DNA from: Diplolepis rosae | Lineage: Eukaryota; Arthropoda; Insecta; Hymenoptera; Diplolepididae | Direction of reading: 5' to 3' | NCBI GenBank assembly: GCA_030998225.1 | Contig: JAPYXD010000391.1 | Coordinates: forward strand, 806,001 to 870,000 | DNA: 64,000 nucleotides | In this document: piece by piece, positions 10,641-64,000 of the stretch | Layout of the letters: each line of letters starts with the position of its first letter | How positions within the stretch are numbered: the stretch's first letter is position 1 | Notes under the pieces: model-generated | The model's database searches: none | What the model saw: the letters and a program-made list of their open reading frames with translations, nothing else | Told to the model about the DNA's origin: nothing | Made by a program: the position numbers and the translations under genes

Positions 10641-10810
10641 AAGTCGAGACTAACCTAAAAACTAACTGGAAACTGGAAAGCTTTACCAGCGAAACCACAG
10701 TAAAACTAAGTGTCATTCATCACATCCATCATTATTGCTTTGTAGAGAATAATTAAGCAAACATTAGAACAAAGTGTGTTAATTAATTGAATTTTTAGGA
10801 AGAGGTCAAA

Positions 10811-18963: not shown

Positions 18964-21025
18964 GTTCTTGGTACTGAAAGTGTCATTAAAGTTGTAGGCA
19001 TGCACAGTTGAAAAATGAAAATTTAGCAGCTGAGTTTATACTGAATGTTTAGCAGAGAACTTTACTTACATATGTTTCACATCAAGTGACTTATGAATAA
19101 AGACATTTTTAATGGAACAAACTTTTATTTTTATCCTTTTTTTATATTAAAAATCCTCAAGGATATACTATATTTATACGTATGAACTGTTTATTATTTA
19201 ATACATAATTATTATTTTATAGGTGCACAAAAGAATATAGATTATAAAATCCTAAATTGAAAAAACTTGAAAGTTTCATCTGAACTAGCAAAATAGTTAG
19301 CATCAGGGCCGAATTTACCGACGAGGGTGCCCTGTGCAAACTAGAATAACCGCCCCTCCCCTCTGTTACTTCAATAAACATTGTCAAGGCACGAGTTTTT
19401 AAAAATAAAAACAGTGATTACGTTCTAATAAGATTCATAGTATAAGAGATCTAGATATTTTGGTTTTTAAGCATTGAAAATTTATATTTAAGAATTTTGA
19501 AGAAAAACGCATATAAACCCTCATTTTTTCCGCCCTCTTTGAGGCGCCGCCCTGGGCAGCTGCCCATATTGATCTTTTTTAAATTCGCCCCTGATTATCA
19601 TACACTCAATAATTTTTTCTAATATCAGATTTCTATAATCTAAAAAAATATTTTTTAAAAAACAAGAAGAAAATTTTTTAAATTTCAAAGATGATTTAAA
19701 ATTATAACCTAAAAAAATATTGCTATACTTTTCTTAAAGAATTTAATATAATTGAGGAAATAAAAAATAATCTTTGGTAATGACTACTCTTTAATATTTA
19801 AAGTAATTTTTCTTCAAATTGAAGGAAATCAGACTTTTTCTCAGAAATAAATTTCCTTCAAAGAATTACTTCGTGTTTTAGATGATTTTCAAAATAAATG
19901 CTATTTTATTTCCTTTTTATCGAATTGGTAAATATTTCCAAAATAGTGTAAATAATCATTATTACATGATTATAAAAGTTCGTTTTGTTGGATATTCTAT
20001 TATTGAAATCGCAGTTTTATTCAGTTATATATTGCATTATACATACAGTGCCGGCTTGAACGATACCAGCGCCCTGTTCGAGAATTTGTAAAAGTACAAA
20101 GCGATTGTATGTATAATGTATATTACAATAAGATGTAAAATTAATACGTATATCACGTAGTAATTGTAATTCTAATTTAATTCTTCTAATTTGTAATTCT
20201 ACGACGAGTAACGTGTTGTATTATTACATTTCGTCTTGAATTCAAACGTGTCACGTAGCATAATTACAATTCGATTATAATTTCACAGAATATAAATAAT
20301 TTTACAACGTGCAATGTAGTATTTTTACAATCGCTTTATATATTTAGAATTGCTTTTTGTAGTTCTACAAAAATATTTTTTTAAAGTGTGGGTTTTTTGA
20401 GTTGAAATAGAGAAATGCAAACCAATTTAACCAATAGGTTAATTTTTTGCTTTTCCTCGTTTGCACAAAAAATGCATACCTGTAAATATATGATTATCTT
20501 ACCAATTAATAAACTTTTTCTGTGCTTGATATATTAGTTAGAAATATTAGAATTAATTACGTTAATTACTTATTAAAATAGTGCTCCGTGAAATCAGTTA
20601 GAAATGTTAGAATTTAGAATTCGAACGATTCAAAACAAGTTGAAACACGGAAAGCACGCGGCACGCGTTCGAACCGGAAATCAATTCAAAGATGGCAGCT
20701 GATATGCAGCAGTTTTAAAATTGTACACGCAGGGGTTGGCGCAGGTGATCTATTAATTTCTGAAATTAGTCGAATATTTTCGCATATGAATGTATATTTA
20801 GTTTTTTCCTACGAATGAAAGTAAAAGAAGGACTAAATTACACAAATGACATGCGAAAAAAGAAATTCGAGCGGTGCTTGAACAGAAAGTAACAGAAAGA
20901 TTCGATATTCGAACCACTTTTACAGCTTCCGTCTTCCGTCTTCCGATCTCTAAACAACCACTTTTTTCACGTTCGCGGTTCGCGGCAGTTCGTTTTTCCG
21001 TGACAGTTCGCGACGAACCGGCAAA
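18964..21025. other. Intergenic, with hAT-type MITE and FBXO45 promoter region
   Basis: Contains the 19304-19593 MITE and a 20087-20345 stretch with loosely inverted GTACAAAGCGATTGTA/TACAATCGCTTTATA ends. The GC-richer 20640-21025 stretch just upstream of the FBXO45 ATG is the probable promoter and 5' UTR. No other gene seen. Confidence 0.45.
19304..19593. mobile_element. hAT-type MITE, about 290 bp
   Basis: Ends are CAGGGCCGAATTTA and the inverse AAATTCGCCCCTG, the CAGGGGCGAATTT termini common in hAT elements. Sub-terminal CCCTGGGCAGCTGCCC (19548-19565) pairs with GGGTGCCCTGTGC on the left. The flanking 8-mers GTTAGCAT and ATTATCAT agree at six positions, a decayed 8-bp target duplication. 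No ORF. Confidence 0.68.
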
Positions 21026-22438
21026 ATGGACGATGTAGTATCCCGATTGTCTGATCATGTTTTAGAAGTGATATTTTCATATTTGGACTTACACTCAATG
21101 AGAAACTGTTCATTAGTCTGCAAAAACTGGTACAGACTTCTTAATGACGAGAATAATGATGTTTGGCGGATGCACTGTATCAGAAAATTGGCCCAGGAAA
21201 TGCTTAGTTCAGACTTGCTGTCATCTGTCCCAACGTATAAAGCAAAGTTACGTGCATTTTATCACGCTTGGAATCCAAATGATTGTTCGCGTAACATTTA
21301 CATCAAGTCTAATGGTTTCACACTGCACAGGTAGATCTACGAATTTTTTTATAATTCCTGCTAGAAAAGTCGATTTCATGTCCATTAAGAACACAAACTT
21401 TTTCAGTTTTCATTGTATGAGCAGAAAATTTCAACCGAAGGGCTTATTTTGATAATATATTTATAATTTCAAAAATTATACTACATTGTTTAATTACCAC
21501 AATTTTAAAGATTGAGGTTAGGATTTTTTACATTGATTATGAAGTATTTACATTTTGTTTATAGTAATGTTACTAAAGGTTTTTTTCTGATGTATTTTTG
21601 TTATGTGCTTTTGTTATGTGCTATTACTTCACATAATTTTACGTAATTAATTTTTAATATTTATTTTTCATTTAATATAAGACGAACTTGTCTCTCAAGC
21701 AATCATACATTTTAGAAATCCAGTGGCGCAAAGTACAGATATGTGTAGAGGCAAAATAGGATTTCGACATGGAAGACATGCATGGGAAGTGATATGGGAA
21801 GGACCTTTAGGAACAGTTGCAGTTATTGGAATAGCAACAGAGGAAGCTCCACTCCTGTGCCACGGATACGTCGCGCTTCTTGGCTCTGATGAGCATTCAT
21901 GGGGATGGAATCTCGTTGACAATCACCTATTGCACAACGGTGATGCGCAAGGAAACTATCCTCTACTCAACAATGCTCCCAAATACCAAGTATATTATTT
22001 TTTAACAACTCTGGAATTCCGAAATTTAAACAGAAAGCGAATAAATATTTGAGCTATTTTTCTCGAAAGTAAACTATTATTTTTTGTAACAAAAATTTAT
22101 TTTTGTTTTGCAGGTCGGAGAAAGAATTAGAGTTATTTTGGACTGCGATGATAATACATTATCTTTCGAAAAAAACTACGAATTCTTAGGCGTAGCTTTC
22201 AGAGGTAAAATATAATTAAATTACTTCAAATAAAAGACAGACGAATTAAGTTTTAATCAAAGAAAAAGTATCTGGTTTTAGAGAAATTTACTTCCGATTT
22301 ACACTTATATTGAGTTAGTTAAATACTTGAATGGTTTTTGCAGGACTTCCAGATAAAAGATTATATCCTTCAGTTTCGGCTGTCTATGGAAACACGGAAG
22401 TTTCAATGGTGTATTTAGGCCCGCCTTTGGATGGCTAA
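21026..22438 (+). CDS. FBXO45: F-box/SPRY domain protein, Highwire-complex E3 subunit
   Basis: Orthologue of vertebrate FBXO45 and Drosophila Fsn. Exons 21026-21330, 21716-21989, 22114-22204, 22344-22438; 254 aa, the usual length, with all phases consistent. Residues about 4-48 form the F-box ([20 protein letters not shown], then [12 protein letters not shown]), which binds Skp1. Residues about 100-254 form the SPRY domain, with [59 protein letters not shown] and the C-terminal [19 protein letters not shown]. In other animals the protein joins Highwire/MYCBP2 in an atypical Skp1-containing ubiquitin ligase that lowers DLK/Wallenda kinase and limits synapse growth. The ATG has a good context (CAAAATGG). 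No defect seen. Confidence 0.97.
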
Positions 22439-30100: not shown

Positions 30101-30800
30101 CGCTCCCGACTTACGATACAGTCTACGATGTCGTTTCCTACGTAGTTTACAATATAGTTTGTGACGTAGCTTACGATGTAGTTTGCGACGTATTTCACAA
30201 TGTAATTTGCGTCGTAGTTTACAATCTCATTTTCGACATCGTCTTTTCTTTATAGTGAAAAAGGGATTAAATCTACAAGATGATACTTACGAGTCGAGAT
30301 TCAGTTTCTGGAAATAAGTACGCTAGTAAAGGGCCATTCAGATAATACATTTGCACTCGAAACACGGCAGTAACCATTGGACTTGGATCTGCTGCTAGCA
30401 AGTACAACTGTAAAAAATAAATTTTTTTCATAAATTTTATACTTTATCATCAAAGTATCAAAAGTATCATTGCCAAATTCACCTGAAGCATTGTATGGAT
30501 GTGACAAGGATTCATAATATAAACAAATGTTCGACTAGTCAATTTAAAGCCTATTTCCATGCCTAGCACGAGGGACATTACAAGTAGTAAAACCCTTTTA
30601 CCAACTGTATCTTGATTAACATATGGCATTGGCTTGGGTAATTTAATACGTTTGTAGCTCCATTGCAAAATAAACATAGTTAATATTGACACACAGAAGG
30701 TTTCAACTAATCTCCTCTTGAGACTCAAATAATTGGCACATTCTGGTCCTATGTTACGAGGAATTGAACTGTCCACCCCGTCATAAGCCCACTCCAACAT
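27123..30800 (-). CDS. TMEM164: Transmembrane protein 164
   Basis: Multi-pass membrane protein of the TMEM164 family, reported in vertebrates as an acyltransferase that builds polyunsaturated ether phospholipids and promotes ferroptosis. Coding exons: 30800-30483, 30407-30291, 28296-28218, 28088-27988, 27404-27123; 298 aa, matching the vertebrate length, all phases consistent. Landmarks: MLEWAYDGVDSSIPRNIGPE at the start; GMEIGFKLTSRTFVYIMNPC followed by HIHTML, holding the Cys-His pair conserved in the family; QMYYLNGPLLAYLFPETESR; YYIQHGLM; YNVEPL; YHFWILQ; and VNLNHMLCPALRDPF. The last about 40 residues are hydrophilic. An acceptor GCAG ends three bases before the ATG, so a 5' UTR exon lies upstream, possibly near 31600. 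Intron 2 (28297-30290) is filled with nested repeats. Confidence 0.94.
27510..27808. mobile_element. MITE with CAGGGTGTCCCGGTACTCAA ends, TMEM164 intron 4
   Basis: Terminal inverted repeats of about 45 bp: CAGGGTGTCCCGGTACTCAA and the inverse of TTGAGTAACGAGACACCATG. TA on both sides. The arms share AAATTCTAATA, AATTACCGAGT and TATATTTTTGAATT words. TA target and CAGGGTG ends suggest Tc1/mariner or a relative. About 299 bp, no ORF. Confidence 0.7.
28358..30265. mobile_element. Foldback-like element of 12-bp ACGTCGTAAACT-type units, split by another repeat
   Basis: The right half at 30118-30235 is a run of 12-bp units such as GTAGTTTGCGAC, GTATTTCACAAT, GTAATTTGCGTC and GTAGTTTACAAT. The left half (28366-28480 and 28688-28715) holds the inverse words GTAAACCACGTC, TTTACGACGTTG. 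Ends resemble each other in inverse (CCCTATTGAAAAAGAC and CCCTTTTTCACTAT). A second repeat, 28716-30098, interrupts it. The 98-codon minus ORF rich in Tyr-Val-Asn is only a translation of the 12-mers. Confidence 0.5.
28716..30098. mobile_element. CCCTGCTGGAAGTAAAA element (GATAGAAAAAGA-type), TMEM164 intron copy
   Basis: Outer ends are CCCTGCTGGAAGTAAAA and the inverse TTTTTACTCCCAGCAGGG. A second internal end, CCCTGCCGAAAGTAAAATGA, starts at 29421. The body is a polypyrimidine-rich run of TCTATCTTTTTCTATC-type words, with short chance ORFs rich in Ser, Phe and Leu. About 28817-30098 is repeated in inverted order at 32399-33888. Confidence 0.65.
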
Positions 30801-31945
30801 TTCTGCAATTTTATATCATACATTATGTCTTTATTTGTTGAAAATTTCTTTTCATTAGTGATTAAATTGTGTTCACTAATACACTATCAATAAAAAGTTG
30901 AAATTTTATATTTTTAATTCCAACAGTATAAAGTCAAATTATATGACCAAAAAACGACCAAATTTGGACTTATTTTTCTTTCTTTCTTCCTTTTTTGTTG
31001 GTTTCTCATAATCGTTGATCCTTAGAAATTTGTTTGGTCCAAATTTGGTCGTTTCTTTTTGTATTTTGAAAGTTCGACTTGAAATTTTGAATTATACTTT
31101 TATTTGGACGTTAAGATGAATTTGAGTTTGTAGTGAAATGGGTTCAAATTTAGTTTTGACTAACTTTTGTTTTGTTGATATAATAAAAAAATTACTTAAC
31201 AAGATAATATAATATTAGAACATGTAGTCTACGTTATGTAATATGTATTATAAATTAGTATTGCCACGATATAAATAATTAATTTGGATTATCCTACTTC
31301 TAAGCTGAGCACAATTTAAAAAAAAAGATGCAATATTTTTCAAGCAAGAAAGTATTGCAATAAGTGGGTCAATAATCGACTTATTGATAAATAGTAACCA
31401 TAGGTTAGGAAAATAGAAATGTCTGAAAAAGCTTATATTTACCTTAGCAGTTTATAAAAAATGTTCCACACTGAAAAGTAACTAGTTTACTTTGAGAAAA
31501 TTTAATCAAAACTGTTTGTATAATTCAAAAAGTGCCTTTTATTTCAGAAAATATCCACCTATTCACAACTGCAATGTCAGACTCAGTCAGACTGACATTT
31601 TCCTCTAAACTTAACTTACTTAACTGAACCTTACGGCTTACTGCGGCTTACGCTGAGCGCGTAGAATCCGTAGAATGAAGTCAATGAAGGTCGTGCTGCG
31701 GCATTGCCCATATAACTACATGATTCAAGGATAAAAATCAAAATAATAACTAAAATAATTTTGTTTAATATGATTTTTAAGCAATCAAATAAAAATTTTT
31801 TTTGATTCATGAAAAAAATAATTGAATTACTTTTAATTGCTTTTCAGATTAGAAAATTTAATGCCAATTCCTGGTAATGCGATTTTCTATTCAACACTTC
31901 TTTGATATCACTTTCGCTGTGAAGAAAGCGCGCTATCTTTTAAAA
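30801..31945. other. TMEM164 upstream region
   Basis: No coding exon seen. A GC-richer patch at 31610-31700 is a candidate TMEM164 promoter or 5' UTR exon. A small inverted repeat occurs at about 30945-31085 (GACCAAATTTGGAC on both sides). Confidence 0.4.
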
Positions 31946-34756: not shown

Positions 34757-37700
34757 TTACATACTGAGATAGCCACGAGCCTGTGCGCGCCTACGTCCTA
34801 CCAAGTACGCGATTAATACAATTACTACTAGCGCTGCCAAGGCACATCCAACAGCTATTGGCACAACATCTGGAGTATCAAATGCACAGTCTTCAGCTGA
34901 AAAAAAAATTATAAATGAAAATATATGTAACATTCAAGTGACACTCCGATAAAAATAAATTAAATATTTGATATACGTACCGAGGCCGAAAGCCTCCTTT
35001 TTATCAGATTTGAAGGCTTGGAATTGCACGTCGTCTACTTTAACAAGTCCTACGGTTTCGTTTTTTCCTGCCTGGGTCAAGTTAAAACTTTGCAACTTCA
35101 GACAACGATAGGAGTTGCTCAATCCGGTTGAAAATTGTGGCTTCACGTGTTCGAAGTTCAACGTCATGTCTGGAAAAGAGATAGCATTATTGGTAAGTAA
35201 TTTAAATAATTTTTCAGGCATGTAATTATTTTTAGTTTTTTACTTACTTGATGTAGAGTTGAAGTTAGGCAGTTCCTGTGGCTGAATGGCGAGTGATATA
35301 CGGTTAAGATTGTAATTCTTGGTGGTGTCATTTTTAACAAAGTGAAGAGTGAACGAATCGTTGGAAGATCCTAAAGTCGAGTTCCACGAAAGTGTTATGA
35401 TTTGTTCAGTTTTACCACAGGTTCCATTTACAACTACTTTGTTCACTGGCAAGTTCATTACTTTCCAAGCTTTTGTCTGTAACAAAATTACACAAGCGAT
35501 AAATAAGAAGAAATTATTTTAAAAAACACACCTCAAAGTTTCTTTCACAAAGATAATAATAACTGTATTATTTAATTGCTCAATAATACATTTATCAGTT
35601 TTCAAATCTAAAAAAAATAATCATGAAAACCTTTAAATTTAAAAACAATAAAATGATAAAGCTTTATGATTTGAGATATTTTAGGTCAATTCCATAACAA
35701 TTTTTTGTTTATTCATGTCTTATATTAATTTTAAATTACATTTTCGTTATGCTAGATAATTTTTCATTAAAACATAAAACCACAAGCATTTGGACTGCGT
35801 TAAAAACTTGAATTTTACTGTAGCCAAAATCAAATTCTCAGTTTACAAAAAACAGAATCGTCTAATTTATCTTTTTTTACAAGTTTTATGGTTAAATTTT
35901 TCAATTGTAAGAAGAGAAATAGCTAAGATCTAAAAGAATGTATGCAGATTGAATTTCATATACAGGGTGATCCGCCAATAGTTATAAAGTTTTGAATGTT
36001 AAATTCTTTGTTAAAAACCAAACAAGAAATCATATTGACAAAATGCTGTGCCAATAATAGTTTTCAAACTATTAAGCATTGCAATTGGCAATACTAGAAA
36101 GAATTTTAAAAATCGCTAACAAAATCTATTTGAAAAAAATGTAAAATTACAGTGTTTACTCTCGATTCAATTTTATTTATTTTTAATCCAATTTTTCATT
36201 AAGGTCTAATTGATCAGGTTTCTTCTTCTGAGAAACTACTAGTTAACTATTGATAATATCATAATATCTTTTTATTTAGAAAGCAATTTTTGTAATTCGT
36301 ATTTAAATCGTGGGGAACTCAATGAACAATTGACGGTGATATGGTTTTCAACTTCATGTTGCTTTGCTAACAGTTTGTCTCTTATCTGGCTGAGAACTAT
36401 TTTTCTACTGATCTGAAGTGAATCTTCGTAAAAAAATTTGCGCAGTAAGGGGTTATAGGGGAGAAGCGGCGAAATTGGCGCGTCGTCTAAATTGGCGCAC
36501 CCTATTTTTCAGAAAATGATAACATAACAAAAAATAAAAATAGTTCTATCGTGTGCATTCTTGTATGATATGTATTTGATAGAAAACATTATAAAAATCT
36601 AATTGCTTAATACAGTTTTATTGCGATTAATCGTTTTTTGGCATAATGGTTATGTTCGAAGCCATTGAGTTAAATCGTTAAATAATAGTAATTCAAGGTG
36701 AATTAGATTAATGCAACGATTTTATAATCTTTGATATTTAATCTTACGATTAGGATAGAATATTTGTATGAAAAAATAAGCATTTTACGTAAAAAGTATT
36801 TAATTAATGAACGATACACTTGCGGCAAAATTGGCGCATACGAGATTCAAATCAGAGGCGAAGTTGGAACACGTGTTGTGTTTCTGGAAACCGGTGACTG
36901 AAGTCAAGTGCTCGGATGTTTATGATTGAAAATATAAAGAAGATAATAAGTACACAATTATTAATATATAGATATATACATTTAAATGTTGCTGGACTTT
37001 TCTGCTAATCTTTTTCTTAAGATTTTTTGTGACATGGGAGGTAATGTGGTTCGCAAAACTGATGTAACGACTTTGTAAGGTTATATTCATTTGAACAATC
37101 AGTGGTTAAATTTTTTTTTTAAGTTTGAGGTATTAAGGAATTTTAAAAGCGATTTTTAATAATTAATTTGCAATCTGACAGTGTTTTGAAAGTTTTCTCG
37201 ATTTTAAGATGTGAAAGCAATGTAAGTAAAAAATTTGTATTTTTGATTGATTGTTTCTATTATTTATAAGTCTTCTAAAGTTAATAATTGTATATACTTC
37301 TGATTACAAATTCAAATAATTCTCTATAAACATGATTTCAATTTAAATATTCACTTAAATATCCACAATTGCCAGTATTTTATTGTACAAATATAAAATA
37401 TATTTTAACTTTGGCTGGTTTATGTGAATAAAGGTATAAAAAACTTCACATATCTTGATATACTATCTCAAATTTAGTTTCAAATTATAACTACCTCTTC
37501 TCATCAAGCTTTGCTACTGAAATGTAATTCTAAATCTATGAAAATATAACTAATACGTGGCAAGAGAAGATTATAATATTAGTGCGTCAATTTACCCGAC
37601 ATGGCTGTGGTAAATTGACGCAGGTGCAGTCCTTCGGAAATCTGAATAAAAACCTGCTTTAATAATTTTCAATGCAATCTTTATCCATTGGAAAGTATAG

Positions 37701-40700
37701 AAAAGATATCCAGCTATTAAATAAATATTTTTTCATAATTTTTAGTCATATACTTTCTTTTTAAACTCGCACTTTCTATTAGGTGCGCCAATTTCGCCGC
37801 TTCTCCCCTATACAGTTAGAATTTTCAAAAAATCGATTTTTTTAAATTTAATTTTCGTAATGTACATATATTTAAGTACACACACAGAAAATTTCAAATC
37901 AATCCGGCGATTATTTTCGAAGTTACACGCATATTTGTAAAGATGTGTCAGAGCGTTTGTAAAGTGCTTGTGAAACTTTAAACGCATTTTTCTCAAAACT
38001 GTGTTTTTAAAGTCGGTGACCAAGATTTCTCGAAAACGGCTGAACCGATCAGTCTCAACTTTTAACACAAGCTTCTAGAATATATTTTTTAGTAATTAAT
38101 CAAAGATGTTTTTCACCGATAAATATTTCTTTTTTTGAGAAGCCGTCATTTTGTCAAAAAATGTTATTTTCCTTATTCCGTTGATTAATTACAAGATTAT
38201 ACATTTATTTAACGAAATCCGTTTGGTTTTTTTATTTTAGATGATCCAGTCTAGAGATATAGTGGTCACCGCAAGTCATCTTTTTTGAGAGGAGCTTCTG
38301 GAGATCAGCTATAGCAGCTGTAAAAATTATCATTTTTACAAATAAAAAATGTTAAAATGTAGTTAAAAGTTACCATAATATGTGTACACATTTTTGCATT
38401 AATAAATTTAAAAGTCTTCTCAGGAAAAAATCTTGAAAAATCGCTTTTTTTGGGCCTCCTGACTGTATATAACCCCGTAAGCTTACGGGCGCGCGGAAAT
38501 AATGAGTTTCTATCATCCAATTGCAATGCTTAATAGTTGGAAAACTATTGTTGGCACAACATTTTGTCAATATGATATCTTGTTTGGTTTTTAACAAAGA
38601 ATTTGACATTCAAAACTTTATGACTATTGGCGAATCACCCTGTATAATTATGAGCAGTATAATAAATGTCAGAGCCTACCGTCTTGTTCAAGGGGTAAGA
38701 AATGTTAAACTGAACAGCCATTTGAACGATAATGCAAATTTGATTGGTGCCATTCACGATCCATTTTCCAGTTGTAGGTTTTGGCACTGGAGTGGGTGGT
38801 GCGTTAGTTGTTGGAATTGATGGTGTTGTAGTAGTTATTGGCGTTGTTGTTTCAGGTGGAGCTTCAGAAGTCGTGGAAGTCGTGGAAGGTGTAGTCGGAG
38901 TAGGCGTAGTAGAATTAGGTGTAGTTGTAGTATGTGTAGTTGAAGTGGGTGGTGTTGAAGTAGGTGGTGCTGTAGTTGGTTCAGCTGTAGATGAGTTACT
39001 TGCAGCCGTAGTAGATGGTATTAGAGTTTTTTCATGATCGGCTGCATTACTTGGAATCGTAGTTAATGGTGCTGTAGTAGATGCAAGTGTAACCGTGTTA
39101 CTTGGATTTGTGTTGCTCGCACTTGTAGGCTTAGTAATTGGTTTCACAGTGGGATTGTTTTTTGAAGGATCTGTTATTTGTTCAGAACTCGATCTAAGAC
39201 TATCAGAACCAAGTGTAGCTTTTGTTTCAGAACTGATTGCACCATTTGCTGCTGTAAAAAAGAAACAAATAATGTAATTAATTTCCAAAAGTAGATGGTC
39301 TTATAATAAATTTTAGATTTTCTTAACTTATTTAAATAAATACTTTACTGTTTATATTATAAAATACTTTTCTTAAACAGAACTATCTAAAAAAAAAACT
39401 TGAAAATGATTATTTATTCACTGATAAAAATTTATAAAAACATTTTCAAAGCTCTCAAGTATGGAACGGTTTTTTATTTTGAACATATTGTCAAATAGGT
39501 TTTTATTTGGAGTTCTTGAATTAAATTTATCAGGAGTCAAAACCTTGCTCAGTTTTATTTATAGATTCTTGCACGCACAGATTCCATGAGTAACTGATAA
39601 AGGACCCGGGATATTAAATAACGTAACTTGAAGCGTTACATAGCCATGTTAAGCATAATTTGCAAATTGGCATTCTTTATCATTTCTAATGGTGCAGGTT
39701 TTCGAGTAATATGCTTTTGTTAAAGTAAATAATTTTTAAAAAAGGCTAATTTTAATTCTTACAACATTTAATGTTCTTTGAAACATTTTCTTATTTTAAT
39801 TCTTTCTAAAAATATTTTGTTACAAGGGAAATTGTATTTGCAAAAGCGAACATAAATCACTTTGAATATGATTACTTATTAGAAATATCTAGGTAATGAA
39901 TTATAGAAAAGTAATATGTAGAATTATTTATTGTATTGTAGAATCCCTGTCACACTGAGTATGAAAATATAGCATGAGTGAAAATCTTCGTTGCCATAAG
40001 CTAAAAACTCATATTTACACAAGCTCATTAATCAAAGGTCAAGTTTTGTTTTGATATTTTTTCAAATTTGTTTACAAAATTTAAAATATGCCTGAAGCTA
40101 TTTAGTGACATTCTTTTAATTAATAAAACTGATAACACGCTTGGAAATTCTTAGTATGATGTATTAATTTAATAAATATAATATAATATAAATAAATATA
40201 AATATATTTAATAAATATAACTAAATTTATTTTTCACTTCGAATTTTAAAGATTTCATGGTTCTTAATTACGACAATGTTGTTATCTGCCGTTTCTGGGT
40301 AGTTAAATGGCAATACAGGGGAAAGAGTTTGTGCTACAATATAAATATCTTAAGAAACAAAAACGAATGGCCAATGAAAAATAAATATACCTATAAATCT
40401 GAAATACTATATTTTTAATGCAGAATTATTTGAAAAATCACACAACTTAAGTGCACGATTTATTTTGCTTATCTTTAGTCTTATCTAATAGTGACGCAAG
40501 AACTGTCTACTATTTTTTTTAAACAACGGAATAAATAGTTTACTATAAAATTTGCTTTTAAGTACTTTATGAGCAATAATAAATTAATAAATAAAAAACA
40601 AAGTTTGAATAATAAATAACAAATAATATTAATAATTGTTTTTTGAAATTTCTAAAATACGTTCATAACTGACAGAAGATTACAATATAAAGAAAATAAT

Positions 40701-49490: not shown

Positions 49491-51504
49491 ATGGGGAATA
49501 AAAGTAGTTGCTGTGCTTATTCCAGCCCTCAAGTTGGCCGAAAAGATTTGAGCGGCGATGGCAGTGGTCGGGGTCTTGAAGATCATCTTCCTGAAGGTGA
49601 CATCAGTGTCAACAACCTCCAACATATTAGCGAACGAGAGCCGGAAGTTTGGAGTTCGGACCCTTCTTTGCATCCTTGCGCTGGTACCATATTCATGGAA
49701 AGATCAAAACAATCCATCGAAAGTAAATATATACTTATTTAGTATTTAGAATCTATCCTTATTGAAGAATGTAAAAATGATATTCATCACAAGTTTTTTT
49801 AATTTTACATTTGTTCCATTTAAAGACTCATTTAGACCAGATGTGCACAGTTTTTAGTTTGAAATTATACTTTGGACTTTGGAAAAAATTGCCAAATTTT
49901 AGTAATTATGAATTTTAATGCAAATACCCTACATTTCTATTAAGAAAACTAATGAAAATTAAAAACTTGTTCAAATAAAATTTGTAATAACTTTTCTAAT
50001 TCACTTTAAAATTAGAGAATAGTTACATAAACTGATATTTGAAGATCAAAGATTTTTAAATTGCATTTGGATGAAGATATTGTATTATCAAGACAACGGA
50101 TGCAATCCGTATGATGTAACTAAGATCTTATTATCATATAAACATCCAGTGCACGCTTCAAAGCTCAAGCATTGTTATTTTTATTCTAAAATCTACTGCA
50201 AGCGAAACATGAATAACAACCTTTATTAAAACCAATGAAAATGATTTTAAAATATCTCAATCTAAGTAAAAATAATTAAATATTTATATATGTATATATA
50301 TTTATATATATATTTCAAAAGTTTATTTTACAAATTTATTGTGATGTTATTTTCAGATGGTATGGTGAGAAAAAAAAGTCAACATCAAATAGCTGATATA
50401 AGGCCTTTGAAAAAGAGCAGTAGTTGTAGTACGATTTACTTAGACGATAGTACTGTATCGCAACCAAATTTAAAGAATACTGTTAAATGCGTTGCATTAG
50501 CTATATATTATCATATAAAAAATAGAACCTCTCAGCGGCAAATAGAAATATTTGATGAGAAGCTACATCCGTTAACGGTGAGTTATAGCGAAACTACAAA
50601 TCAGAAAGTAATTTCAAGTTGATATTTAATTTATAATTGAAATTATTTATTTTTCATTTTACAGAGAGACGGTGTTGCAGATGATTACGATAAACACAAT
50701 CCAGAGCACAAACAAATATATAGATTTGTGAGGACTCTTTTCAACGCAGCACAATTAACAGCAGAATGTGCCATCATAACTTTAGTATATCTGGAACGTC
50801 TACTCACGTATGCGGAAATAGATATAACTCCCGCCAATTGGAAACGAATCGTGCTCGGTGCTATTTTGCTAGCTTCCAAGGTGTGGGATGATCAGGCTGT
50901 GTGGAATGTGGACTATTGTCAAATTCTAAAGGACATTACTGTAGAAGACATGTAAGTATTCCATTTATCTCTTTCAGTTTTAAATTATAATAATTACTTT
51001 TTCCTTTTGAATTAACGATGAAACATAGTCCTAATCAAAAAGATGAATTTCTTCTACAAAAAGTATTCAAAATAGTTTAAAATTTGAAAAATGATAGGCT
51101 CTATGCTCTTTTTAATTTTGTTTATCAAGACTGGGTGCCTTAAAAGTTTGTTGAAAGATTTCTGTTTTGATAAATAATATACTTTACACACTAATGTCAT
51201 CTTATTGTCTCCTAGGAATGAATTGGAGAGACAGTTTTTGGAAATGCTTCAGTTCAACATAAATGTTCCTTCAAGTGTATACGCTAAATATTATTTTGAC
51301 CTTCGCACTCTCGCCGAAGCGAATGAATTAACATTCCCTAGTGAACCTCTTAGTAAAGAAAAAGCACAGAAGCTTGAGGCTATGTCTCGCGTATATGAGG
51401 ATAAAGTCACCGCGGAAGCTTTGCGCAACGGTATTAAAAAATGGTCCAGTCTCGACAACGTTTGCATAGGTGGGCCTAGACGTAGCATCGCAATTCTCTC
51501 ATAA
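49491..51504 (+). CDS. CCNY: Cyclin Y
   Basis: Membrane-bound cyclin that activates the PFTAIRE kinase CDK14 (Eip63E in flies) and supports Wnt co-receptor phosphorylation. Exons 49491-49722, 50357-50577, 50665-50951, 51216-51504; 342 aa, matching the vertebrate protein, all phases consistent. MGNKSSCC at the N-terminus provides Gly2 for N-myristoylation and a Cys pair for palmitoylation. [11 protein letters not shown] and [19 protein letters not shown] are family landmarks, the latter holding phosphosites used for 14-3-3 binding in other species. The cyclin box spans about residues 150-280, with [40 protein letters not shown] and [20 protein letters not shown]. The C-terminus [18 protein letters not shown] is less conserved. 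No defect seen. Confidence 0.96.
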
Positions 51505-56034: not shown

Positions 56035-56937
56035 TTAATTAAAATTTTGAACTGTTTCCAACAACTTCTGTTGTTTTTCTATCAAAACTTCTTGTTCCGT
56101 CGAATACCCATTAAATAATGTAAACAACAAAGTAATTAAAAACATTGAAAAAATACAAACAAGTAATCTTAAAATTATCAACTCATCCTTATTACATTCT
56201 TCTTTTTCTTTCAAAATAGATAATTCTTGCTCAGGTGCTATTTGAGATTCTGATTCATTTTTCATAATTTCATTCTCAGGTTCTAAAGACCTTTCATAAC
56301 TTTCAAAAGCTTCTGCCTTTCTTAAAATAGATAAAGCTTCTTCAATAGTTTCCACTGGGTGTATGTCAAAGAGCTCTTCAATCTCTTCTGGCAAATCAAA
56401 GTGCTGAAGTAGATCAAAAATTACGTCTTCCTCAGGTTGTGGCTTATCCAAAAACTTTGCCTCATTAGCATACTTGAACAAATAATCATCCATCGATAAA
56501 CCACAGTTTTTATCGTATTCTCCATTCCTAAGATGATTTAGAAAAGATCTCTGAACGTCTGCATTCCAGTAAAATTTAATGAAGTCTTCCGTCATTTCCT
56601 CATAAGATCCATAACCACGGAGGTTCAACCATATTCCTGCATCTTCAACCAAAGACTGAATAAAATAATATTCCTTTTCATACTCATTCAGATTTTCATG
56701 CATTGCAAAGTATTCAAAATTTTTTATAAAACGTTTAGGGTGTGTTGAGTCATTTTTTCCGGTAAATTTTAAATTTTTAAAGGGATTGAACTTCTTGACG
56801 AGTTGATTTTCCTGATATGCTAATTCAATTTTCGGTCTTTCTTCTCGTCCTATATGTAATTCATCGCAATTTTCAAAAGCATCTTCAATTTCGTTCATGA
56901 TAGTTCCATCCTCCTCGTTTTCGTTTATCCTGGTCAT
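56035..56937 (-). CDS. Gag capsid-like protein with C-terminal membrane segment, single unit
   Basis: 300-aa protein. Residues about 50-220 resemble the Gag/capsid (Retrotrans_gag-like) domain of Ty3/Gypsy elements: NPFKNLKFTG, HPKRFIKNFEYFA, YYFIQSLVEDAGIWL, EEMTEDFIKFYW and the family-specific CGLSMDDYLFKYANEA. The first about 45 residues and the 220-250 linker are acidic. Residues about 253-275 (LIILRLLVCIFSMFLITLLF) form a strong membrane segment, followed by a 25-residue coiled-coil-like tail EQEVLIEKQQKLLETVQ. No CCHC knuckle, protease or polymerase follows. An acceptor TTTACAG precedes 56975, 38 bases upstream of the ATG, and a donor GAG|GTGAGC at 58346 could close a 5' UTR intron that contains the 57008-58054 repeat. 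About four in five residues over the central 70 match unit 3 of the neighbouring 673-aa protein. Function unknown; a domesticated Gag is my inference. Confidence 0.75.
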   Translation of the reverse strand: MTRINENEEDGTIMNEIEDAFENCDELHIGREERPKIELAYQENQLVKKFNPFKNLKFTGKNDSTHPKRFIKNFEYFAMHENLNEYEKEYYFIQSLVEDAGIWLNLRGYGSYEEMTEDFIKFYWNADVQRSFLNHLRNGEYDKNCGLSMDDYLFKYANEAKFLDKPQPEEDVIFDLLQHFDLPEEIEELFDIHPVETIEEALSILRKAEAFESYERSLEPENEIMKNESESQIAPEQELSILKEKEECNKDELIILRLLVCIFSMFLITLLFTLFNGYSTEQEVLIEKQQKLLETVQNFN

Positions 56938-57007
56938 TTTCCTTGATGAAAATTTACTAATCGTTCAGAGTTAACCTGTAAATAAAATTTAAGAGATATA
57001 CTGTAAA

Positions 57008-58054
57008 CCCTCCTGGAAGTAAAAAGATTGAAAAAGATATAGGAACTGGGGCATTGGAAAAGATAGAACATTTCTATCCCTCCCAACCCATCACTTTGCA
57101 TCCCCAAAACTCTATCTTTTTCTATCTCCGCGTTTATCTAGAGTGACCGGGAATATCTATCTTTACCTATCCCTTAGTCTACTCTCTAAATCTGAATCAG
57201 TCAAATTTTCACTGATTGAATCAGTGACTGCCTTTTCACTGATTCATCAGTGAAAAAATATTTTTCACTGTTAAATCAGTTCATTTTCACTGATTCATCA
57301 GTGAAAAAATATTTTTCACTGTCAAATCAGTCAATTTTGAATGAAATAATCAGTGAAATTTGACTGATTTACAATAACCTCTTTTTAGCTATTTGAATCA
57401 GTCACATTTCACTGATAATCAGTAGATTTTGACTGATTCAAATTTAGAGAGTAGCCGCCAACTGAAGCAGTATCTATCTTTTTCTCTATCTTTCGTGATC
57501 GACCACTTGTATCTTTTTCTATCCCTCATTTATTTCCCCATAGTGCAAATTTTAATCTCTCTCTATATCCCTCAGTATCTATTCTTACCATGAAATAAAA
57601 AGTGCAGTTCTAAAAAGTATTGTGTCCACATTACATAGGGGAAGACTATTACTTCTTTGGCGAATTTAGATTGACGAAGAGATAAAAAAAGATTGACGTT
57701 GATAGATGTAGAATAGAATGAGATAGAAAAGAGGAGATTGAAAAAGATAGACGCGTATTGTGATTGACTAAGAGATAGAAAAAGATTGACGTTGATAGAT
57801 AAAGGATAGAATGAGATAGAAAAGGGGAGATTGATAAAGATAGACGTAAATTTAGATTGATAAAGAGATGGAAAAAGATTATGGATGATAGATAAAGGAT
57901 TGGAATGGATAGAAAAGTAGTTATTAGAAAAGATAGACGTGAAAATAAAATCAAAAAGGGATAGTATTGAATAAATTATCTCTATCTTTTTGTATAATAA
58001 TAATTCAAAATAATTTAAAAGGATAAGATTTCTATCTTTCTACTTCCAGCAAGG
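57008..58054. mobile_element. CCCTNCTGGAAGTAAAA element (GATAGAAAAAGA-type), copy with nested MITE
   Basis: Left end CCCTCCTGGAAGTAAAAAGA, right end the inverse TTTCTACTTCCAGCAAGG. Body of GATAGAAAAAGATTGACGTT-type words and their inverse. The palindromic CACTGATT MITE at 57180-57453 sits inside. It lies in the putative 5' UTR intron of the 300-aa Gag-like gene. The 101-codon minus ORF inside is a repeat translation. Confidence 0.65.
57180..57453. mobile_element. Palindromic CACTGATT MITE, copy 2
   Basis: Inverted relative to 9181-9455 and similar along its length, including CTACTCTCTAAATCTGAATC, the TATTTTTCACTG blocks and the AACCTCTTTTTAGCTATTTG segment. Found in a different host repeat from copy 1. 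Confidence 0.72.
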
Positions 58055-58836
58055 AAGTATTTAGGATTTTAATATTTACTTTCTGATTCAATTATCAGAA
58101 AATTTGTAATTCTAAAAATAATTTCTACCGTACGTTTCATATGAACTAACTAAAAATAAATAAATACAAAAAGATGGAATAAGGCTGTTATAAATATTCA
58201 AGAAAGATTACCTATAATTCTTGTGAATTTGTTTGAATGAGAATAATATAAAGTGAGTTAAATAAATATTTATCAATCGCACAAATGCCTAAGTTTATCT
58301 AAACATACACTAATAATAATAGAGTTATTTATTTTTATATGCTCACCTCTACTTTCAGGATAAAATTTCTTGATTTAGGTCTTCTTAAACAATCAATTTT
58401 GTACAAAATTACAGATTAGATATAAGAGCTTCTAGCGTTGCTTTACGATAGTGTTACATGAGAGGTACTGCAGACAATAAATTACATGAATACTTAGCAC
58501 AACTTGAAATTAAAGGTCTTCGAGACCACCAGGTAAATTAGAATGAAATGGTAGGGATTGACAAAAGTTCTCGCTTGAAATTCGTAATAAACGTAAATGA
58601 AAAGTATCGCATGGAAAAATGAAATGAATAAAATAATAAATAAATAAGAGTAAGATTTATTTGCTTATTAAAGATATGTACATGTGTAGCTAACTCTAAA
58701 TTTAATTCGAAAAGGATTTTATAATTTATACAATTAAAGACATAAATACAGTAAAACCGTGTCAATAAAGCAAAATATTTGTTTTTTTAGACACATATGT
58801 CTTAGACATTATACAATCATATTAAAGATTCAAACA

Positions 58837-60858
58837 TCAACATTTACGAACGAAACTAATAATCGAATAAAATAATGCAGAGTACAGTCCAGAAAGAAAA
58901 TTAAATATATTAGTCCAGAAATCACTTTTACTTTGGCGATTCAAAATCTTGTCGATTTTCAAAGCTTCTGCCTTTCTTAAAATGTTTGATGCTTCTTGAA
59001 TAGTTTTTACGGATGTTGTTTCAAGAAGGTCCTTAATCTCTTCTTGCAAGTCAAAATGATAGAGAAGATTTAAAATTACAGCCTCTTCAGTCAGTGCCTC
59101 GTTCAAAAATTTAGCCTCATTAGCATACTTGAAAAAATAATCATTCATCGATAATCCACAGTTTTTATTGTACTTCCCTTTCATAAGATGGTTTAAAAAA
59201 GTTCTCTGAATATCTTCATTCCAATAGAAATTGATGAAATCTTCTTTCATCTCCTTATAAGATCCATATCCATGAGCATTCAGCCAGTTCTGAGCATCCT
59301 CGACAAGAGATTGAATGAAGTAATATTGTTTTTCGTACTCATTTAAATTTTCATGCGCAGCAAAGTATTCAAAATTTTGAATAAAGCGTTTTGGATGCAT
59401 TCCATTGATTCTACCAGAGAACTTTAAATTTTTGAAAGGGTTGATATTTCTGTAAATTCGAATTTCTGGAAATGTATCTTTGCACAGTTGTTTCTGATAA
59501 CTGACAAGTTGATTTTTAGCCTGTGTTTGCATAAAACCATAAAAAATAATTGCCAAGAAAATAACCAGCAATACAAATATTGTCGAATTAAACATTACTC
59601 TCCACGTTTTACTTTTACTTTTCCAAAAATTTGAAAATTTTGCACTAAATCCTTTGCAGTTAGAATTGTCCAAAGCCTCTGCCTTTGTTATAGTATCCAA
59701 AGCTTCTTCTGCAGTCCTTATTGATTGTAATTCAAATCCTGTTATATTTTCTAATTTAAAGTGCTTTAGCAGTTTGGCAATAACATGTTCCTCACTTGGT
59801 CCTTTATTCACAAACTTTGCTTCATTGAAGTACTTGAAGAAATAGTCTGTCATCGATAATCCACAGCTTTCATCGTATTTTCCATTTTCTAGATGATTTA
59901 GAAAAGATTCTTGAATATCTGAACTCCAATAGAATTCAAGGAATGCGTTTTTCATCTCTTCATAAGATTCGAATGCATGTGCATTCATCCAGTTTTCAGC
60001 ATCCCCGACAAGAAATTGGGTGAAGTAATATTGCTTTTCGTAATCATCTAAATTTCCCTTGGCTGCAAAAAATTCGAAGTTTTCAACAAAGCGTTTCGGG
60101 TGTATCCTATCTGCTTTTCCAGAAAACTTGAAATTTTCAAAAGGGTTAAATTTCCTGAAAAATTCATAATCCTGGGATCCATTTTCATTCTCTTGATTTT
60201 TATAATCGATTAGTTCCTTGCATGAACACTGGTCTTGAATTTTATTGAAAATCCCACTATCTGATCTTGATGAATTATTAGATTCCGAAAAATTATCAGG
60301 TGTTAGGATATTTTCTAAATTTTCTGCATTTGTCAACAGATCCAAAGCTTCCTCAATCGTTTCTACTAATTCAATATCTTTGTGAATATTTTGATCTAAA
60401 TCAAAGTGACGCAAAAGCTCTAAAACTACATCTTTCTCTTCTGGAATTTCGTCTAAATACATTATGTCATCGATGTACTTGATGAAATACTGAGTCATTG
60501 ACAAGCCACAATTTTTATCATATTTTCCAAATATCACATTGTTTAGAAGCAATTCCTGACTATCAAGACACCAATAAAAGTTGAGGAAAGCTTCTTTCAT
60601 TTCCTGGTAAGTTCCATACCCATGTCGCAGCATCCAAATCGCAGCATCCTCAACAAGAGATCTGATGAAGTATTGTTGTTTTTCAAATTCATCCAAGTTT
60701 TCTTGAAGTGCTAATTGCTCGAAATTTTCGATAAAACGTTTCGGATTCATCTTATCGCCTTCTCCAGAAAACTTCAAACTGGCAAAAGGGTTGCATTTTT
60801 TGCAGAGTTGGATTTTTTGGAATGTTTTTTTCTTCTGGTTCTCATTGTAGGAAATCAT
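58837..60858 (-). CDS. Three-unit Gag capsid-like membrane protein, 673 aa
   Basis: Starts at ATG 60858; an acceptor TTTTGCAG ends at 60872, so a leader exon is likely (donor CAG|GTAAAT at 61301). Three capsid-like units lie in one uninterrupted ORF at residues about 20-185, 233-397 and 470-636. Each repeats the same order: NPF.(N/S)(L/F)KFSG, (N/H)PKRF(I/V).NFE, EKQ.YF, an aromatic EDA/GDA..W, a YQEM/YEEM/YKEM helix ending FYW, GKY(D/N).(N/S)CGLSM.(Q/D)YF.KY, and an EEA..(L/I)..AE.L helix. A hydrophobic membrane segment separates units 2 and 3 (residues about 424-445, IFVLLVIFLAIIFYGF). A second weaker one is at the C-terminus (about 648-669, FNFLSGLYSALFYSIISF). The 185-232 linker is Ser/Asn-rich with CSC. 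No zinc knuckle or enzyme domain. Unit 3 is closest to the 300-aa neighbour. Could alternatively be a degenerate retroelement fragment, but three intact units in one ORF argue for selection. Confidence 0.75.
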   Translation of the reverse strand: MISYNENQKKKTFQKIQLCKKCNPFASLKFSGEGDKMNPKRFIENFEQLALQENLDEFEKQQYFIRSLVEDAAIWMLRHGYGTYQEMKEAFLNFYWCLDSQELLLNNVIFGKYDKNCGLSMTQYFIKYIDDIMYLDEIPEEKDVVLELLRHFDLDQNIHKDIELVETIEEALDLLTNAENLENILTPDNFSESNNSSRSDSGIFNKIQDQCSCKELIDYKNQENENGSQDYEFFRKFNPFENFKFSGKADRIHPKRFVENFEFFAAKGNLDDYEKQYYFTQFLVGDAENWMNAHAFESYEEMKNAFLEFYWSSDIQESFLNHLENGKYDESCGLSMTDYFFKYFNEAKFVNKGPSEEHVIAKLLKHFKLENITGFELQSIRTAEEALDTITKAEALDNSNCKGFSAKFSNFWKSKSKTWRVMFNSTIFVLLVIFLAIIFYGFMQTQAKNQLVSYQKQLCKDTFPEIRIYRNINPFKNLKFSGRINGMHPKRFIQNFEYFAAHENLNEYEKQYYFIQSLVEDAQNWLNAHGYGSYKEMKEDFINFYWNEDIQRTFLNHLMKGKYNKNCGLSMNDYFFKYANEAKFLNEALTEEAVILNLLYHFDLQEEIKDLLETTSVKTIQEASNILRKAEALKIDKILNRQSKSDFWTNIFNFLSGLYSALFYSIISFVRKC

Positions 60859-61302
60859 CTTGTGACTCAATCTGCAAAATAAAATGAAAATTGTTTTAAA
60901 GACAGTTTTAAAATGTTAAAAGTGCTGATATTTTATATATAGTGGATATGAAGTATAATCAATTTTTATTAGAACTAGAAATTTGAATTATGTTATGAGA
61001 TACATACTTCAAAATATTATTTGTAATTGATTATTTATAAAACAAAAATTCTGTTCAAATTATTAAATCAAAAAAATATAATGATTAAATCATGTAAATT
61101 TCAAATTCATTTTCAAATTATAAATCAGCTATGATAATATTTATAGATTAACTGCTAATATATACTGATATAATAGTATTGATCAAATCAAATAGGATTT
61201 TCTATTATAATTTTTTCTTTGAAGAAGTATAGAATATATATAAATAAATCCTCCAAAATTTTAATTAATTATTCGGAATTATGTGAATGTGAAAGATTTA
61301 CC

Positions 61303-62221
61303 TGCTTTCTTATTATTCCCACGTTGGACAGATATTAGATAAATTTAATAAATACTACAAAATATTATTGACGTCGTGACGATGTTCAAACCAGGACATC
61401 TAGGTAAATGTAAATAGTAAGCACGTACTGTGAAGGAGAGGTGTCGATATCTGAAGATGAAAACAGTGAACAGTTGAAAAATATCAGAATACCTAATCCA
61501 GGTAACAGAAGGATGCAAACTGTAAATTACATTTCTTGTTCCAAATGTAGAAGAATTATAGTCATTACCGTTGCAACTTTCATACTAAGTTCGATTTCTG
61601 GAAACGATATACCTGCATATAGATAATAATAAATTAGATTTATGAAGCCACGCCCATTTGGCCCAGGAGTGCAGAATCTATGACAATTAGCACATAATTA
61701 TACAAATTCATTATGGGTCTAAGTAGAAGAGTTAAAAGAAATATTTTATCCTTCCGCAAATAAAAAGTGTCGTCTCATAATTGTTTTCATTAAAAAGAAA
61801 TCAATTATTAAATTTTAAATCATGAACCTCTTTTTCATTGATAAATAGGATTTTTTATGGTCATACAATGCTGAATTAAAAGCAGCATGAACTAAATTCA
61901 TGAAAATAGGGTATTTATTAACTCATCATCAATACATCAAATTTGAAAAAGAATGATTGCAAAAAAAAGTAATTTTAGGTAAAAATTATATAAAATAAAA
62001 TAGTACATATTTGTTAATTATTAGCAATAAATACCTGAATACATGCTTAAATTATGATCCAAAATGTCTCAAAAATATTTAAAGAAAGAAACTTAAACTT
62101 CAAAGAAACTTACGTTGATTCAAGTGAATACATGCTTAAATTATGATCCAAAATGTCTGAAAAATATTTAAAGAAAGAAACTTAAACTTCAAAGAAACTT
62201 ACGTTGATTCAAGTGTATAAA
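61303..62221. other. Spacer between Gag-like genes
   Basis: Contains the probable leader region of the 673-aa gene (donor at 61301) and the duplicated segment below. A short plus-strand ORF (61441-61626) with a hydrophobic end lacks an ATG and is not called. Confidence 0.4.
62038..62217 (-). repeat. 89-bp tandem duplication carrying a splice-donor sequence
   Basis: Two nearly identical units, 62041-62129 and 62130-62218 approximately, differing at one base (TGTCTCAAAA versus TGTCTGAAAA). Each contains, on the minus strand, TTGAATCAACGTAAGTTTC with a good donor. The first unit in transcript order starts 4-20 bases after the stop codon of the 260-aa gene. Confidence 0.72.
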
Positions 62222-63004
62222 TTAACGTTTTTCGTTTGTCGAATAAAATTTCGTAACAAAATTCAACACAATGGCACAACAGGCCAAAGAGAGGAAAAAC
62301 CAAGCATATGATGTGGTGTTAGAGTTTTTACTATTTTTCGAAGATATTAAGGCCGAAAAAATATTTTTGTTGGACCTCGTAGGTACATTCTGCTTGAAAG
62401 CAGTTATTAAAACACCCACAGCTTCTTCGATGGACTGCACATTTTTCTTCTGAAACTCCTTTTCCACATGGCAACCAAAATGTTTAGAAAGTTTGTTAAT
62501 TATTTCCTTCTCAGTGGGAGCTTCATCTAAAAATTTTGCTCCATAAGCATATTTGAAAAAATATTTAGTCATTGTCAAACCACTTTTTTTTTCATACTTC
62601 CCAACTTCTAGGTGATTAACAAAGTTTTTCTGAATATCTGAGTTCCAGTAAAACTTGAGGAAAGCTTCTTTCATTTCCTCATAATTTTTATATTCGTGTT
62701 CTTCTAACCAAATTGCAGCATATTTAATTAATGATTGAATAAAATAATTTTGTTTTTCATTTTCATCCATTTCCTCCTGGGCTGCAACATTTTCAAAATT
62801 TTCTATGAAAAATTTTGGGTTTATTAGGTCTCTCATTCCTGAGAACTTTAAACTCTTTATAGGCTGAAATTTATCAAAAAAACGAGTTTCTTGAGATTGG
62901 TTTCTAGATTCTTCTGCTTTTTGATCAACTGTATACATTTCTTGTAAAGTTTCTTGAGTTTCTGTAACATTTTTTTCCTCCTGCAGTTCATTCTTTGAAG
63001 ACAT
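62222..63004 (-). CDS. Gag capsid-like protein with C-terminal membrane segment, single unit, divergent
   Basis: 260 aa. Acidic N-terminus (MSSKNELQEEKNVTETQETL), then a single capsid-like unit at about residues 42-210: PIKSLKFSGMRDLINPKFFI, NYFIQSLIKYAAIWL, YEEMKEAFLKFYW, KKSGLTMTKYFFKYAYGAKF and an EEAVGVL helix. The Cys of the CGLSM motif is Ser here and Met-Ser is Thr-Met, so it is the most divergent member. Residues about 234-252 (YAWFFLSLACCAIVLNFV) form a membrane segment with a short basic tail ending NEKR. An acceptor TTTTTAG precedes 63027 and a donor AAG|GTAAAC is at 63206, giving a short leader intron. Two copies of an 89-bp repeat with a GTAAGT donor follow the stop codon. Confidence 0.72.
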   Translation of the reverse strand: MSSKNELQEEKNVTETQETLQEMYTVDQKAEESRNQSQETRFFDKFQPIKSLKFSGMRDLINPKFFIENFENVAAQEEMDENEKQNYFIQSLIKYAAIWLEEHEYKNYEEMKEAFLKFYWNSDIQKNFVNHLEVGKYEKKSGLTMTKYFFKYAYGAKFLDEAPTEKEIINKLSKHFGCHVEKEFQKKNVQSIEEAVGVLITAFKQNVPTRSNKNIFSALISSKNSKNSNTTSYAWFFLSLACCAIVLNFVTKFYSTNEKR

Positions 63005-63027
63005 TTTACTTGCTCTTCGGTGAATAT

Positions 63028-64000
63028 CTAAAAAGAATGTTTGTTTATTTTAGTTAGAAATTCACATTTCATGTTTAATATTTTCTTTACTGTATTGAGA
63101 AGTATTGAAAAAATAAGATCAAATTTAAAAGAAGCAATTAAAATTTTATAATATAGAAGCTACTTTCTAATCAAAGCGCCTGATAAAAATAAAAAATATT
63201 GTTTACCTTATTCTTTATTGCAGATAATTATTTTCCATGAAACTGTTCATTAACGAAAACGTCATTTTCTACAAATTCACCCTCCAATTTATAAATGTTT
63301 CCGAGAGGAATGTTTGAAATAACTCAAGCGACAACACTTAAAAATCTTATAAATCTTATAATGACATGAATGACTTCTAGTTATCAACGCCATATAGACG
63401 TGAAACCCAAATGCCATGTTTCTCAAGAAACACCAGTAGTTTTAAAAATAGACTTATTCCTATTTCGAGACGGGATTGCAGCTGTGCATTAAATATATCG
63501 CTTAGAATATAAACATTTTTTGAACAAAAATTCTATCTACTTTTTAATCATACGAATATTACGTATTCAATCAAATTAAATAATTAACTACCCTAAGGCC
63601 ATGTCTTACTTATCCGATTCCTACCTTACCGACACTCTTTTTTCGCCCTTTGCATTCCCACATTGAGATATCGAGTTAAAACTTTGAGTAATTAAGTGAA
63701 AAGGAGTAAAAAACATTTATCTGGTCCAAAATTTTTATAATTACAAAAAAAAAAAATATAAACGTTCCTTAGTGTTTTTTACTTCATTACTCAAAGTTTC
63801 AACCCAATATCTGAATTAATGTAGGAATGCAAAGGGCGAAAAAAAAGTGACAGTAAGGTAGGGATAGGATAAGTAAGACATGGCCATAAACATCATTTTA
63901 CAAATCTCCCGTCCAATTGAAAAAAAAACAAGATTCTATTAAAAACTTTATAAAAAAAATATGTCTTTATACGTAGAACATGTAAAAAAATTGTATGGTG
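63028..64000. other. Right edge, upstream of the Gag-like cluster
   Basis: Holds the probable leader exon of the 260-aa gene (ends 63207) and the MITE at 63597-63885. No other gene seen. Confidence 0.4.
63597..63885. mobile_element. GGCCATG-ended palindromic MITE, best-preserved copy
   Basis: GGCCATGTCTTACTTATCCG and its inverse (GGATAAGTAAGACATGGCC). The arms match along almost all of the 289 bp, with TACCTTACCGACACT and GAGTTAAAACTTTGAGTAAT in inverse on the other side. Flanks TAA and ATAA, a decayed TTAA. Same family as 24144-24363 and 25639-25955. Confidence 0.7.

Follow-up and report, generated by a model that had tools for sequence, protein, structure and literature searches.

An ancient, tandemly expanded family of membrane-anchored, domesticated Gag capsid genes in the wasp Diplolepis rosae

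Most of what is known about domesticated Gag proteins comes from mammals and flies. A 64,000-nucleotide stretch of the wasp Diplolepis rosae (contig JAPYXD010000391.1, positions 806,001 to 870,000; hereafter the window) carries a cluster of three genes, named A, B and C, that encode the capsid (CA) domain of Gag. The cluster represents a domesticated Gag family that is ancient, has expanded in tandem and is membrane-anchored. It is very probably a host gene family derived from a Ty3/Gypsy-type Gag CA, which was probably captured once in an ancestor of the cynipoid wasps and copied in tandem, lacks pol, long terminal repeats (LTRs) and the long N- and C-terminal regions of Gag, has been kept by selection, and has most of its copies anchored in a membrane. 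The nearest published precedent is Gagr of Drosophila, a domesticated gag of gypsy and an earlier membrane-bound case; like the window genes, it is described as an insect Gag that has gained a transmembrane domain (PMC8956099, PMC7231272). Gagr is also described as the sole gag-related gene of its genome, whereas the wasp genes form a tandem cluster. Compared by description, the GN repeats, GV-rich region and serine-rich C-terminus of Gagr differ from the CA domain and tail anchor of the wasp proteins.

Arc and its fly counterparts dArc1 and dArc2 share the two-lobed CA fold and are the best structural matches; their identity to the wasp CA is about 10-18% in structural alignments, and PDB sequence searches with the window genes gave no capsid match. 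To our knowledge, Arc has neither membrane anchors nor tandem CA units, unlike the wasp genes. PEG10, RTL8 and the PNMA proteins are domesticated Gag capsids of mammals, captured there independently of the wasp genes; PNMA2 and the C-lobe of PEG10 match the wasp models. DRT2 and Ty1 p22 of yeast are CA-derived proteins without enzymes; their match is to the C-lobe only, they belong to the Ty1/Copia lineage, and the wasp genes resemble them by fold. No paper on such genes in wasps was found in the open-access literature searched. What is new is a tandem family of membrane-anchored capsids with a chimeric neighbour, which goes beyond the single gene Gagr; the host range known so far is the cynipoid wasps, together with further related proteins.

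Gene cluster and capsid fold

An earlier note, made from these letters alone, had described three intact, same-strand open reading frames (ORFs) of 260, 673 and 300 amino acids. All three are present on the minus strand in a head-to-tail arrangement, with the transcription order A, B, C:

62222..63004, minus strand: gene A, 260-amino-acid ORF with one CA domain and a C-terminal anchor
62393..62872, minus strand: CA domain of A, residues 45-204, from unit alignment and structure model
58837..60858, minus strand: gene B, 673 amino acids from the ATG at 60858, in the order CA, CA, transmembrane segment, CA, weaker hydrophobic end
60256..60810, minus strand: CA unit B1, DNA repeat and protein unit, stretch used in both trees
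59611..60165, minus strand: CA unit B2, DNA repeat and protein unit, matched by retroelement Gag
58906..59460, minus strand: CA unit B3, DNA repeat and protein unit, stretch used in both trees
56035..56937, minus strand: gene C, 300-amino-acid ORF with one CA domain and a C-terminal anchor
56278..56805, minus strand: CA unit of C, DNA repeat, protein unit and structure model, matched by retroelement Gag

The frame of gene B reaches 677 amino acids if counted from an upstream TTG. Repeat finding on the DNA yields a single five-copy family, of which B holds three and A and C one each, and protein units recover the same five independently, in agreement with the five conserved domains reported before. 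The four other copies are 66-77% identical in nucleotides to the reference copy, and the protein units are 46-64% identical across 176-180 codons. Since DNA likeness among the copies is confined to the CA-coding parts, the duplications are taken to be old. A sixth CA copy lies just outside the window (contig C195:870853-871392), inside a 462-amino-acid frame, and together with the five-copy family it bears out the tandem expansion. The conserved motifs named earlier are present, though as variants: NPFKNLKFSG is matched exactly in unit B3 only, and A reads QPIKSLKFSG.

AlphaFold models of A and C resemble the capsids of Arc, dArc, PNMA2 and Ty3 in a structure search. Further matches are the C-lobe of PEG10 and the solved capsid domains of Ty1 p22 and Drt2, of which the two yeast matches bear on fold only. 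The models thus predict the two-lobed CA fold that characterizes domesticated Ty3-type Gag capsid genes; with the homology to the genome's own retroelement Gags set out below, this upholds the proposed Ty3/Gypsy Gag capsid identity. The Pfam check suggested in the note gave weak results: Ty3_capsid was found for gene C (E 6e-4, below the curated cut-off), and for A and B there were only unrelated names under the cut-off, among them EcsB, CarA_N and Metalloenzyme, which are taken as chance. A BFVD fold search gave nothing at E<=0.001; its top rows were mostly plant bacilliform virus coat proteins or polyproteins, and a fungal metavirus ORF and retroviral Gags ranked below them. A pattern scan of viral contigs produced 365 pattern matches and no relative. 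A single-sequence protein search retrieved gene C alone, so profiles were required to find relatives.

Retroelement relatives, wasp kin and selection

The genome searched is assembled in 428 contigs that total 757.7 Mb. Gene C matches at least 129 places in it, six in the cluster and 123 elsewhere, and gene A at least 147, the same six cluster places included. Twelve dispersed places were fetched as first-lineage loci (L012-L023). By eye, pol frames or fragments adjoin the Gag frame in 11 of these 12; the remaining one, L017, is a split Gag without a pol neighbour. At L012, the only locus whose pol was scanned, the ORF after Gag has protease, reverse transcriptase, RNase H and integrase domains. 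At L021, a repeat pair of at least 440 nt, 98.9% identical and 8.5 kb apart, flanks Gag and pol; among 11 loci tested, it is the sole one with such a pair in the stretch examined. With the Gag of L012 as query, genes A, B and C are matched at E 6e-12 to 4e-9, in B through unit B2 only, and the range extends to 7e-5 once the sixth copy is included. This establishes homology of the window genes to an LTR-retroelement Gag; the identity to such Gags elsewhere in the genome is 26-29%. Loci from the weaker matches yielded two lineages beyond the first; across L012-L034 the genome holds at least three LTR-retroelement Gag lineages, with long N-terminal parts. One compared pair of genome Gags is alike at 1853 of 1860 nt, so related retroelements appear to have been active recently.

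In a genome where such elements are common, a Gag-derived domain might mark nothing more than remnants of a retroelement inserted several times, with no host genes among them. This reading is highly improbable, and the flanks already argue against it. In tblastn at E<=1e-3, three retroelement pol ORFs match nothing in the entire window, nor in L009-L011, which cover the 30 kb to its right, their first kb overlapping the window; this search alone reached the 53 kb to the left of the cluster. Five retroelement loci have no DNA match to positions 50-64 kb of the window or to L009. The arrangement of an active LTR retrotransposon, Gag then pol between LTRs, was therefore not found at the locus. 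Both the lack of reverse transcriptase, integrase and protease noted before and the prediction that no LTRs or pol ORF would bound the copies agree with these searches. The pattern search also confirms that no CCHC knuckle occurs in the three window proteins. None was found in 11 of 11 Gag rows of the nearest retroelement lineage either (L012-L023 minus L013, a near copy of L012; some rows are fragments), so the missing CCHC is a weaker sign of domestication. All six close matches found with gene C are located within the cluster, which likewise speaks against dispersed insertion.

The kin of these genes in other wasps are a second argument against mere remnants. The five-unit profile matches two proteins of the gall wasp Belonocnema kinseyi, proteins of Leptopilina boulardi and L. 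heterotoma, and others; the Leptopilina genes are LOC127280186 in L. boulardi and LOC122500401 in L. heterotoma. In a tree with three genome Gag lineages, the 14 host rows form one group (100/100), nearest the first retroelement lineage (95/95), on a long branch. This tree holds 7 of the 11 first-lineage rows (without L016, L017, L021 and L023), 3 of 4 second-lineage loci (without L029) and 4 third-lineage loci; L033 and L035 were unused. Gene A falls into a subgroup with the two Leptopilina proteins and with P0008, P0009 and P0010 (95/99; 90/99 in the other tree). Within this subgroup the CA is 56-90% identical, and all 6 rows have the hydrophobic tail, whose identity is 32-100%. P0006-P0010 thus seem to form an orthologue-like group with gene A, and the absence of orthologues in sister species, which the note would have counted as refutation, is not seen: other wasps have related proteins, including this group for the 260-amino-acid gene. 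The other tree has 10 retroelement rows, TE_L021 having fallen out with its motif unmatched, and its bootstrap had not settled. In it, constraining B1-B3 and C to one group comes at a cost of 0.71 log units (p-AU 0.347), and no settled branching order was obtained among B1, B2, B3, C, D and P0003.

The third argument comes from the frames themselves. Among the copies, the ratio of nonsynonymous to synonymous change (dN/dS) is 0.09-0.28 in 7 of 10 unit pairs, with dS near saturation; the remaining 3 pairs are saturated. The dN between CA units is 0.20-0.46. The ratio near 1 that would have told against host genes is thus not seen, and the values point to purifying selection on the cluster copies. 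If the family is of single origin, such selection would have acted after capture. A frame-survival simulation (substitutions only, 2000 runs per frame) was run for A260, B677 and C300. At 0.1 changes per site, 19, 0 and 6 frames of 2000, respectively, were still open; at 0.2 changes per site, 0, 0 and 1; and at 0.5 changes per site, 0 for each. Frames of such length vanish fast under drift, and their staying open despite deep divergence is more than chance. Host retention, as first proposed, therefore stands on kin in other wasps, one host clade and low dN/dS among the copies.

Membrane anchors and possible function

The hydrophobic segments and the probable splice sites of the three genes are as follows:

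62252..62308, minus strand: anchor segment of A, residues 233-251, hydropathy 1.89
59542..59598, minus strand: hydrophobic segment of B between B2 and B3, residues 425-443 of the 677-amino-acid frame, hydropathy 2.73
58852..58908, minus strand: weaker hydrophobic C-terminal end of B, hydropathy 1.48, below the cut-off of 1.6
56125..56181, minus strand: anchor segment of C, residues 253-271, hydropathy 2.78
63028..63029, minus strand: probable 3' splice site of gene A, 23 nt before the ATG, by eye
60872..60873, minus strand: probable 3' splice site of gene B, 13 nt before the ATG, by eye
56976..56977, minus strand: probable 3' splice site of gene C, 38 nt before the ATG, by eye

The hydropathy cut-off is passed by 3 of 3 window ORFs, by 6 of 8 related wasp proteins and by 0 of 11 retroelement Gag rows, and the membrane anchor seen in the first reading is thereby borne out. 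In A and C the segment follows the CA in a tail-anchored-like position; as it lies near the C-terminus, the CA of both would face the cytosol. The putative 3' splice sites just before each ATG suggest non-coding 5' exons in A, B and C.

A membrane-tethered capsid trap against related retroelements is the favoured mechanism; the whole account, mechanism included, is tentative and held at somewhat less than even confidence. The tail-anchored copies would hold two-lobed CA domains at the cytosolic face of a membrane. Capsid shells are built from many weak CA-CA contacts, and because they form in this way, anchored and tandem CA units could enter the assembling Gag shells of related retroelements. 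The shells so entered would then be held, capped or misdirected by the anchored CA. We infer the topology, expression, co-assembly and restriction that this mechanism needs. Consistent with a trap, the CA units are repeated, the rest of the element is lost and both assembly lobes are kept; the genome also offers more than 100 related Gag matches (123 of the 129 gene C matches lie outside the cluster). Precedents exist for the principle: in yeast, the CA-derived DRT2 is reported to restrict its parent element (PMC10951436), and in human cells RTL8, a CA-only relative of Gag, is reported to interfere with particles (PMC11684626).

The same combination of capsid fold and membrane anchor would also suit export in vesicles or particles, in which an anchored CA lattice under the membrane buds extracellular vesicles, such as the venom vesicles of Leptopilina, with a cargo that is mainly protein. 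Relatives do occur in Leptopilina, whose venom vesicles have an unsettled origin; however, the study of the vesicle proteome reports no convincing viral structural proteins in it (PMC6945029), and the main text of another paper mentions neither gag, capsid nor retrotransposon (PMC11944595). Belonocnema, a gall wasp, has relatives too. Export is rather unlikely. A little less likely again is an adaptor role like that of Gagr: a scaffold on a single membrane, in the endoplasmic reticulum (ER) or plasma membrane, that serves stress or signalling and uses the CA fold for oligomerization only. Gagr, as an insect gag with a gained transmembrane domain, has been proposed as such an ER-membrane adaptor (PMC8956099, PMC7231272, PMC10816282), and B and C are acidic (net charge -21 and -34), unlike a nucleic-acid-binding Gag; an adaptor, however, has no need for several tandem CA units.

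Several observations weigh against the anchored, singly captured family and its proposed role as a trap. The three-lineage tree carries a program warning and long branches meet in it; for this reason, and because the retroelements of other species are unsampled, a single capture is likely rather than proven. The dispersed Gags outside the cluster are 23-33% identical to the CA of gene C, and identity to present Gags as low as this makes direct co-assembly doubtful. Foldseek E-values are modest (best 1.4e-3, none <=0.001). P0010 (1.53), P0003 (0.36) and the 462-amino-acid frame of the sixth copy fall below the hydropathy cut-off. Two Belonocnema proteins have an N-terminal segment, and one of them has a C-terminal segment too. 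If the inner segment of B spans the membrane once, the third CA of B would lie on the other side; it has no N-glycosylation motif, which decides nothing on topology. Gene A is near neutral overall, and its last 150 residues carry a net charge of +10, so loss of nucleic-acid or RNA binding cannot be assumed.

Chimeric neighbour, surroundings and significance

Just right of the window, the sixth CA copy forms the last exon of a predicted gene:

L009:1149-4517 = C195:870148-873516, minus strand: predicted five-exon gene, phases consistent

Four upstream exons can be joined to the sixth CA phase-consistently, for a total of 778 amino acids; the N-terminal exons are Cys-rich, and the last exon holds the CA and a unique C-terminal part. 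The RING/FYVE-type matches of the Cys-rich part are all below threshold (FYVE 0.0083, zf-C3HC4_3 0.026, a PDB FYVE protein 0.015). Genome searches with pieces of its N- and C-terminal parts turned up no other good match, and the C-terminal part belongs to no Pfam family. A reading in which A, B and C serve as alternative last exons of a single long gene was dropped: the splice donor preceding the sixth copy has phase 2, and by eye this phase stays open after the B acceptor only, with an early stop after the acceptors of A and C. TRIM5 and TRIMCyp target capsid lattices through binding. A capsid-built innate defence, in which tethered tandem CA snares retroelement shells and the chimeric neighbour, with its Cys-rich and perhaps zinc-binding N-terminus joined to CA, aims an effector at lattices by co-assembly, is an unlikely, speculative extension of the trap.

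Several repeats lie around the genes. A 93-nt satellite-like repeat in three copies is found upstream of gene C (57660-57938), and low-complexity frames resembling it occur at 29.5-30.2 kb and 32.5-33.1 kb. Right after the stop of gene A there are two 89-nt tandem copies, 99% identical (62036-62213). Between gene A and the sixth copy, at 63594-63888, inverted repeats of 71 nt (90% complementary) and 59 nt (80% complementary) are nested and may be a small inverted-repeat element. Farther away, 7348-10716 has the same translated frames on the plus strand (7760-7972, 8006-8197) and the minus strand (10074-10286, 9849-10040), and reads as a large inverted duplication or an element with long terminal inverted repeats.

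Ordinary animal genes surround the cluster: 20954-22049, 50266-51501 and 11552-14306 on the plus strand; 34937-39300, 375-1513 and 30453-30815 on the minus strand; and others in L009-L010. Their Pfam matches include F-box/SPRY, cyclin, LAMP-like, C2HC zinc finger and enoyl-CoA hydratase, some below cut-off. The genes right of the cluster are presumably a TMEM164-like gene, cyclin Y and an AMBRA1-like WD40 gene.

In this family, proteins with more than one CA unit and with membrane anchors occur beside a multi-exon gene to which a CA is joined, in a genome that still holds more than 100 related Gag matches. Such a cluster would offer a natural series on the fate of a spare capsid, between building particles and jamming those of its relatives. 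Gag capsid genes are now also found in Leptopilina, a laboratory model with venom vesicles of unsettled origin.

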